In this document: positions 5,955-9,343 of the stretch, piece after piece
Numbering within the stretch: the stretch's first letter is position 1
Layout of the letters: each line of letters starts with the position of its first letter
NCBI GenBank assembly: GCA_018607905.1
Contig: JABBAP010000044.1
Span: 1-43,201, forward strand
Source of the DNA: Paracoccaceae bacterium
Lineage (GTDB): Bacteria > Pseudomonadota > Alphaproteobacteria > Rhodobacterales > Rhodobacteraceae
DNA length: 43,201 nucleotides
Direction: 5' to 3'
The notes under the pieces: generated by a model
What the model was told of the DNA's origin: nothing
Seen by the model: only the letters and a program-made list of their open reading frames with translations
The model's database searches: none
Translations under genes and position numbers: made by a program

Positions 5955-5983
5955 TTGACCCAAACCCTTCTCTTTCATAGAAG
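5955..5983 (+). promoter_or_regulatory. Promoter of the rplB block
   Basis: TTGACC (5955-5960) and TAGAAG (5978-5983) lie 17 bp apart, matching the sigma70 consensus at 5/6 and 4/6. A start near 5990 would give a leader of about 160 nt containing the three tandem hairpins at 6059-6126. Confidence 0.6.
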
Positions 5984-6058
5984 CCACTATCTGCACCGTC
6001 CTAGATTCGTCTGGGGCGTTGTTGTTTTGGGCGTATGTTATCTGCGCCTGCCTAAATC

Positions 6059-6126
6059 GGGGACCTTCGGGGCCTTATAATTGCAGACCTACGGGGCTGC
6101 TTCACATTGCGGACCTACGGGGCCGC
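6059..6126 (+). promoter_or_regulatory. Triple UNCG-hairpin leader of rplB
   Basis: There are three consecutive hairpins of the same design. H1 is GGGGACC-TTCG-GGGCCTT (6059-6076), H2 GCAGACC-TACG-GGGCTGC (6083-6100) and H3 GCGGACC-TACG-GGGCCGC (6109-6126). Each has a UNCG tetraloop closed by C-G, a second C-G pair, an A.G mismatch, and four outer pairs. The outer pairs differ between copies yet stay paired (A-T in H2, G-C in H3, two G-T in H1). No T-run follows, so these are not terminators. The array ends 23 nt before the rplB ATG. Confidence 0.7.
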
Positions 6127-6149
6127 CACATACACGGAAGACAGTAAGA

Positions 6150-6989
6150 ATGGCACTTAAGTCGTATAAACCGACGACGCCGGGCCAGCGCGGGCTGGTA
6201 CTGATCGACCGTTCAGAGTTGTACAAAGGCCGTCCGGTCAAAGCCCTCACTGAAGGCTTGACCAAAAATGGCGGACGTAACAACACTGGGCGGATCACGA
6301 TGCGTCGCAAAGGCGGTGGGGCGAAACGCCTGTACCGTATCGTTGATTTCAAACGCAACAAAATGGATGTTCCAGCTACCGTTGAACGGATCGAATATGA
6401 CCCGAACCGGACTGCGTTCATCGCACTGATCAAATATGAAGACGGCCAACAGGCCTATATCATTGCTCCACAGCGTTTGGCTGTTGGGGATAAGGTGATT
6501 TCTTCGGCTAAGGCAGACGTGAAGCCGGGCAACACGATGCCGTTCACAGGTTTGCCAATCGGTACAATCATCCACAACATCGAGCTGAAACAAGGCAAGG
6601 GCGGGCAGATTGCACGTGCTGCTGGTACGTATGCTCAGTTTGTTGGTCGGGATGGTTCCTATGCTCAGATCCGTTTGTCTTCGGGCGAACTGCGTCTGGT
6701 GCGCCAAGAATGTATGGCCACTGTCGGTGCCGTGTCTAACCCAGACAACAGCAACCAGAACTTTGGTAAAGCGGGCCGCAACCGTCACAAGGGCATCCGT
6801 CCAAGTGTTCGTGGTGTGGTTATGAACCCTGTCGATCACCCGCATGGTGGTGGTGAAGGACGTACATCGGGTGGTCGTCACCCAGTGTCACCTTGGGGTA
6901 AGCCTACCAAAGGTGCGCGTACGCGCTCTAACAAGACAACGGATAAATTCATTGTTCGTTCCCGTCACGCCAAGAAGAAGGGTCGTTAA
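6150..6989 (+). CDS. rplB: 50S ribosomal protein L2
   Basis: A 279-residue L2, starting [15 protein letters not shown]. It shows the RNA-binding and peptidyl-transferase-proximal motifs ([54 protein letters not shown]). The frame is open upstream to 6081, but those codons lie in the hairpin array, and GGAAG at 6136-6140 marks 6150 as the start. It heads a second transcription block and is followed 3 nt later by rpsS. Confidence 0.98.
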
Positions 6990-8824: not shown

Positions 8825-8856
8825 AAACCCCTGAGCAAACGCTTGGGGGTTTTTCT
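8825..8856 (+). terminator. Intrinsic terminator after rplP
   Basis: AAACCCCTGAGC (8825-8836) pairs with GCTTGGGGGTTT (8841-8852), 12 pairs including two G-T, around AAAC, and continues into a T-rich tract. It splits rplP from rpmC and lies only about 17 nt before the next gene's start. Confidence 0.9.
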
Positions 8857-8872
8857 TTTCTGGGAGATTGGA

Positions 8873-9343
8873 ATGAACAAGAATTTTGCAGAACTAATAG
8901 AACCGTTGGATCGCCGACTTAGTGCAATGGTAGAAATGCCACCGATTTTGGACGGAAATTTACCCAAAAACATGCCGTTGGAGGGCGTCTATTTGTTCTC
9001 GGAAAAAGGAAGATACCTATATGTTGGGCGGTCGCGCAACATTCGAAACCGTTACCGAATGCATCGCCGGCTAAGCGCCCCGGACAATCAAGCGAGCTTC
9101 GCGTTCCTAATTGCAAGAAAACGCTTTGAGCTGGTAAGAGAAAAAGTTGAACCGACGACTTGGACACGAAAAAATTTAATGGCTGATGAAACTTTTAGCG
9201 AGTTGTTTACCGAAGCAAAGAAACGAGTAAGCCTAATGGAGTTTCGTTTTGTTGCTGAAAAGAACGATGAGCGGCAAGCCTTATTGGAAATCTACTGCTC
9301 GGTTTCCTTGAGGGCGTGTTACAATAAATTTCGAACGCATTGA
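8873..9343 (+). CDS. GIY-YIG nuclease-domain protein
   Basis: A 156-residue protein with a GIY-YIG-like module: GVY at residues 38-40, YVGRSRNIRNRYRMH at 50-64 (with the arginine expected after the YIG strand), and a possible catalytic glutamate in ALLEIY near 145-150. The N-terminal ~35 residues have no recognised domain. GIY-YIG proteins cut DNA in repair, restriction or homing. This one is stand-alone and its role is unknown. The start at 8873 has GGAG 8 nt upstream and the sequence is more AT-rich than the flanking ribosomal genes. Confidence 0.75.
   Translation: MNKNFAELIEPLDRRLSAMVEMPPILDGNLPKNMPLEGVYLFSEKGRYLYVGRSRNIRNRYRMHRRLSAPDNQASFAFLIARKRFELVREKVEPTTWTRKNLMADETFSELFTEAKKRVSLMEFRFVAEKNDERQALLEIYCSVSLRACYNKFRTH

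Follow-up and report, generated by a model that had tools for sequence, protein, structure and literature searches.

Our analysis showed that the three UNCG hairpins preceding the ribosomal protein gene rplB in the 43,201-nucleotide stretch of Paracoccaceae DNA analyzed here (the window) are part of a leader that belongs to an already listed RNA family, RF03142, in an unusual three-copy form. The initial annotation had described tandem hairpins with a shared A.G mismatch and four outer pairs, and direct reading of the sequence agrees: in each of H1, H2 and H3, four outer pairs are followed by the A.G mismatch and by two inner pairs that close a UNCG loop, and 12/12 outer pairs are formed, with two G-U pairs, both in H1. 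H2 and H3 differ by one compensated pair, and the gap between H3 and the rplB ATG (6150) is 23 nt, as previously noted. The features of the region are:

5955-5960 and 5978-5983, plus strand: promoter-like hexamers TTGACC and TAGAAG, 17 bp apart, read from the sequence, with a predicted transcription start.
5997-6018, plus strand: 5' hairpin, CGUCCUAGA(UUCG)UCUGGGGCG, nine pairs, with a T-rich tail at 6019-6028.
6030-6048, plus strand: possible small hairpin GGCG...CGCC, from direct reading.
6059-6076, plus strand: H1, UNCG copy 1, GGGGACCTTCGGGGCCTT, read directly as GGGG A CC UUCG GG G CCUU.
6083-6100, plus strand: H2, UNCG copy 2, GCAGACCTACGGGGCTGC, GCAG A CC UACG GG G CUGC.
6109-6126, plus strand: H3, UNCG copy 3, GCGGACCTACGGGGCCGC, GCGG A CC UACG GG G CCGC.
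6083-6147, plus strand: match to RF03142, the L2-Alphaproteobacteria ribosomal protein leader.
6136-6144, plus strand: GGAAGACAG, Shine-Dalgarno-like region within the conserved tail of RF03142.
6150-6989, plus strand: rplB, encoding ribosomal protein L2 (Pfam PF00181 and PF03947), the first gene behind the leader.

The match to RF03142 scores 47.1 bits against a gathering threshold of 37.8 and spans the whole model (1-66 of 66), which supports the earlier suggestion of a ribosomal-protein leader. In the alignment, H2 takes the place of the family's conserved hairpin, H3 that of the plain second hairpin, and the ribosome-binding region that of the tail. For H1 the match is partial and scores 17.4 bits, below gathering. 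The window leader and the family share the position before rplB, the ACCUnCGGGG hairpin, the linker and the ACGGAAGACAG tail, and the leader sits directly 5' of rplB-rpsS-rplV-rpsC (identities by Pfam), as expected for RF03142. The family was published in 2020 (BMC Microbiol), where it was rated a borderline candidate and L2 was given as its ligand as a best guess from the closest gene (PMC7247131). In RF03142 as printed, a single UNCG hairpin precedes a plain, variable one, whereas the window has three UNCG hairpins, the third occupying the plain slot between the conserved hairpin and the tail. In this slot the congener G792 (L304/L077) carries an H3 identical to that of the window, and three other relatives (L071-L073) an ordinary hairpin. 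The pairing also differs, since the RF03142 model has a bulged A and a 3-nt loop, whereas the changes seen in relatives favour an A.G mismatch and a UNCG loop; in addition, the upstream A(UUCG)U hairpin of the window leader falls outside the model. The word 'tandem' is absent from the main text of PMC7247131, and our literature search found no paper naming RF03142. The earlier statement that no described ribosomal leader with this triple layout is known does not hold for the leader itself; the triple layout lies outside the printed model. Judged by RF03142 as printed, the text of that publication (supplement aside) and our literature searches, the pairing register, the multiple copies with their spacing, the UNCG copy in the plain-hairpin slot and the recurrent upstream hairpin seem to be new.

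To analyze the pairing in relatives, we used an rplB-based sample, not chosen by leader, in which 149 genomes of the family yielded 132 with rplB and 120 leaders that were read; the 12 remaining loci were left out because of contig edges or an rplB in two pieces (5) or because no start was found (7). We scanned for c(UNCG)g hairpins in which three or all four of the outer pairs form, requiring neither the mismatch nor the inner pair. This identified 104 hairpins in 82 of the 120 leaders, compared with 4 on the reverse strand and a mean of 5.8 (maximum 14) in 50 shuffles. The A.G mismatch is present in 96 of the 104. Of the inner pairs, 89 are C-G, 8 U-A, 4 G-C and 3 other (among the 96 A.G hairpins: C-G 87, U-A 6, G-C 3). 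The A.G hairpins with a changed inner pair, either U-A (AUCUNCGGAG) or G-C (AGCUNCGGCG), occur in L261, L265, L268, L269, L285, L295, L244, L275 and L277; these nine hairpins comprise four distinct sequences and thus reflect few independent events.

We then aligned 29 distinct copies, including 24 with the exact core, 4 with A.G and a changed inner pair, and 1 with A.A; we set aside seven hairpins of other make-up (L194, L195, L226, L251, L252, L257 and L297), as well as copies whose core has a single mismatch (for example in L188, L192, L304 and L032). Row selection fixed the loop and closing pair in all 29 rows, the inner pair and mismatch in the 24 exact-core rows, and at least three outer pairs in the five other rows, leaving the outer stems of the exact-core rows unselected. 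In the A.G/UNCG register, 95.4% of cells pair, and both letters of the inner pair are changed in 4/29 rows. The copies have a covariation score of 0.501 in this register, compared with 0.131 in shuffled alignments, and 0/500 shuffles reach the observed value. In the Rfam register, 92.6% of cells pair and the covariation score is 0.376; here, 3 rows do not form pair 6-14 and 5 do not form pair 7-13. For pairs with both partners changed, 23/500 shuffles reach the observed number in the A.G/UNCG register, compared with 100/500 in the Rfam register; as the aligned rows are related, none of these shuffle fractions is a probability. The unselected stems, 17 of them distinct, pair at 92.6%, compared with 64.2% when shuffled (maximum 76.5% in 1000 shuffles). 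This covariation and the strand-specific conservation upstream of rplB support the earlier proposal of a structure kept by compensatory change, and the conserved pairing in relatives, whose absence had been named as a possible refutation, is present in the 104 hairpins found across the 120 leaders. We favour the register with the A.G mismatch and UNCG loop, which from the aligned copies appears to fit the relatives better than the RF03142 consensus. A borderline leader candidate hereby gains much stronger support as an RNA structure, with a corrected pairing proposed.

When the tract 6055-6152 of the window leader is folded in isolation, all three UNCG hairpins are predicted to form; H1 then adopts the Rfam-like register, whose energy for this hairpin equals that of the A.G/UNCG register. 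The minimum fold of 5988-6152 (-52.6) disrupts the outer stem of H2, and keeping all three hairpins costs 0.6 kcal/mol relative to this minimum. The fold of the 181-nt leader is not more stable than those of shuffled sequences (z -0.29).

RF03142 has a match in 330/394 genomes of the window's bacterial family at E<=0.01 and is over the cut-off in 249/394, counts that are lower bounds given our strict filters. Within the genus, 26/33 genomes are over the cut-off, the window's own included. In the class sample, 16/385 genomes match at E<=0.01 and 4/385 are over the cut-off, all four from the window's bacterial family, again with its own genome included. Within 200 nt of rplB, the 120 leaders of the rplB-based sample carry no exact core in 51 cases, one in 52, two in 16 and three in 1 (the window), so that 17/120 have two or more. 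With a looser core, in which the inner letters are free within limits and the A and G of the mismatch are kept, the corresponding numbers are 42, 61, 16 and 1; the element is therefore dispensable in the family, as 42/120 leaders lack the A.G/UNCG core.

We also used a larger set of 166 leaders, made up of these 120 plus 46 from model-selected and congener loci and thus biased towards having the element. If as many as two core mismatches are tolerated, three of the 166 have three copies, namely those of the window, the congener G792 (L304) and G756 (L032). Among the 166, a copy starting fewer than 55 nt ahead of the start codon was found only in the window and G792. Neighbouring copies in this set start 24-26 nt apart in 33/34 cases, the remaining distance being 75 nt. 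A strict triple pattern searched in 84,980 species genomes matched 95 stretches, none of which encodes L2 according to tblastn, a search that found 3/3 added positive controls. Because the pattern tolerates no mismatch, G792 and G756 escape it, and the genome search may omit records very close to the window. One such match, in Sulfitobacter (L102), was rejected as a simple repeat elsewhere.

Upstream of the hairpins, the initial annotation had placed a good promoter at 5955-5983. Its hexamers and 17-bp spacing recur as TTGACC-17-TA(G/C/A)AAG in five close relatives (L062, L071, L072, L073 and L077), but our consensus promoter scan does not call the TTGACC/TAGAAG pair of the window. The sequence of the promoter region differs in L069. 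Approximately 200 nt before rplB, L070 has a ATGTGTATAAGAGACAG stretch that resembles a sequencing adapter, and the promoter region of L070 may thus be an artefact. By eye, and without counting, hairpin-like stretches of other sequence are visible at the equivalent of 6030-6048 in L069-L073 and L077.

Taking into account the family membership, the paired structure, and the number, spacing and position of the copies, we consider it fairly probable that this is an autogenous leader of the RF03142 type, in which the three copies, 24-26 nt apart, bind a ribosomal protein and lower translation of the block. The promoter at about 5955-5983 would start an rplB-rpsS-rplV-rpsC-rplP mRNA, whose leader would offer three copies of one small RNA target, namely four variable pairs, the A.G mismatch, two pairs and the UNCG loop. 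A ribosomal protein in excess over free rRNA, most likely L2, could bind these repeated hairpins, and several copies could bind several protein molecules. H3 lies 9 nt from the GGAAGACAG ribosome-binding region, so that a protein bound to it would hinder 30S loading there and reduce translation of the block. Against this mechanism we counted the borderline rating of the family, the gene-based guess of its ligand, the lack of an A.G copy in the 23S rRNA of a relative (see below), the fold energies, the 42/120 leaders without a core and the 23/500 shuffles.

The step with the strongest competitor is the identity of the ligand. L2 is the first candidate because rplB is the first gene behind the leader; S19, L22, S3 or L16 were also considered, and it is possible, at clearly lower probability, that one of these block proteins or a non-ribosomal RNA-binding protein is the ligand. 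This alternative draws on the 23S rRNA of the relative G154 (in L207), in which we found neither the pattern A[CTG]CTNCGG[GAC]G nor a c(UNCG)g hairpin with an A.G mismatch; a single c(UNCG)g hairpin close to the 5' end of this 23S has a C-G pair in place of the mismatch. The helix that we take to be the L2 site in 23S rRNA has a GCAA loop. Mimicry of 23S sequence and secondary structure by the leader hairpin was accordingly rejected for the 23S of G154; a 23S search of the window's own assembly gave no match. Nothing positive points to any of the other proteins. Multiple sites are known from the E. coli L20 leader, where one mRNA contains two L20 sites that mimic 23S rRNA (PMC7247131). The window leader is similar in having multiple putative ribosomal protein sites in one leader, but differs in its sequence and genes and in having no visible mimicry. 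With respect to 16S rRNA, none was identified in G154 by model, or by three marker words looked for in the 7 kb that flank this 23S copy (L328), on its rRNA strand.

A role without any ribosomal protein ligand, in which the hairpins merely stabilise or process the rplB mRNA as nuclease barriers, is in our view unlikely. UNCG loops are very stable, copy number varies among close relatives, and a recurrent hairpin lies upstream near the predicted 5' end, all of which would suit such a function. An A.G mismatch, however, would weaken a pure stability element, and yet it is kept in 96/104 hairpins while the stem letters change; the 24-26 nt spacing likewise argues against this role.

Transcription attenuation, with the terminator-like hairpin at 5997-6018 as the switch and the UNCG hairpins as modulators, also appears improbable. 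This hairpin sits between the promoter-like hexamers and H1 and may be terminator-like or 5'-protective. Within 120 nt upstream of the first copy (or of rplB), a terminator-like hairpin is present in 65/120 leaders versus a mean of 1.5 in 20 shuffles, and an A(UUCG)U/C hairpin in 57/120 versus a mean of 0.35 (20 shuffles); among the 78 leaders with a copy, each of the two types is found in 52. Such recurrence and the T-rich tail in the window would be compatible with a switch, but the hairpin precedes the UNCG copies, which would be made after the polymerase has passed, and the tail (TTGTTGTTTT) is interrupted by G. Furthermore, an antiterminator pairing was discarded, as pairing of the 5' arm with the last hairpin of the same leader is no stronger than with swapped ones (mean of -14.02 versus -14.03 kcal/mol in 55 leaders). 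No T-run directly follows H1, H2 or H3, which argues against intrinsic terminators there, and the hairpin/terminator scan listed hairpins only upstream of them, within 5997-6033. The earlier remark that the region has no T-run is thus accurate for the three UNCG hairpins and fails for the further hairpin at 5997-6018 with its T-rich tail.

Finally, we compared the core ACCTNCGGGG with its background. Counting both strands, the window contains three copies versus 0.30 expected, and 0/100 shuffles reach three. In the window's assembly (76 contigs, 95.9% complete), the core has 20 copies compared with 19 for a reversed control pattern, and the outer pairs are 4/4 only in the three cores upstream of rplB, the other 17/20 having 0-3; the bare core is therefore ordinary, while the paired and clustered form is not. 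Chance or a dispersed DNA repeat, to which the lack of genomic enrichment of the bare 10-mer (20 versus 19) would lend itself, is extremely improbable in view of the complete outer stems confined to the rplB copies and the strand-specific conservation upstream of rplB in relatives.

Returning to the RF03142-type leader, we analyzed the descent of its copies in a tree built from the rplB genes of 26 genomes within the genus (L061, L063 and L080 were dropped for want of a usable gene, and L081 because it duplicates the genome of L064). The nearest to the window by path is G792, which has three copies, one of them decayed and the third identical; next are G774, G784 and G776, each with two copies and an ordinary second hairpin, and G780, sister to G792, has one copy. 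The fork joining these genomes is open, so the order of gains and losses is not derivable from the tree. The H2 of the neighbours differs in sequence from that of the window, and copying between slots is a possible source of the likeness between H2 and H3 of the window. We tentatively propose that the L2 leader may be a modular array, in which units of ~25 nt, each an A.G/UNCG hairpin with its linker, would be gained or lost and would be copied from one fixed slot to another, and the copy number (0-3) would tune the cooperativity of ribosomal protein repression of rplB; in the window's lineage, the array would occupy the slot beside the ribosome-binding site. If true, the leader would present a ribosomal protein with a target of variable valency that shows no visible mimicry of rRNA. 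The predicted, likely binding unit occurs in one to three copies at near-fixed spacing, and close relatives with one, two and three copies offer a ready series for relating site number to the response of the leader and for finding its real ligand.

As for the gene context of the leader, rplB in the window is followed by rpsS (PF00203), rplV (PF00237), rpsC (PF00189/PF07650) and rplP (PF00252). The S10 block is split by ~3.1 kb between the end of the L23 gene (3057) and the start of rplB (6150), a segment that carries an L-PSP/RidA-like gene (PF01042) and an MFS transporter gene (PF07690), both on the minus strand. The A.G/UNCG core is present in 49/58 leaders without an rplW signature within 400 nt upstream, the kind to which the window belongs, compared with 29/62 leaders with one (Fisher p 1.9e-5, kinship ignored). 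Directly behind the L16 gene, the window has an ORF at 8843-9343 with weak similarity to GIY-YIG nucleases (PF01541; 20.2 bits, under the cut-off of 22.6).
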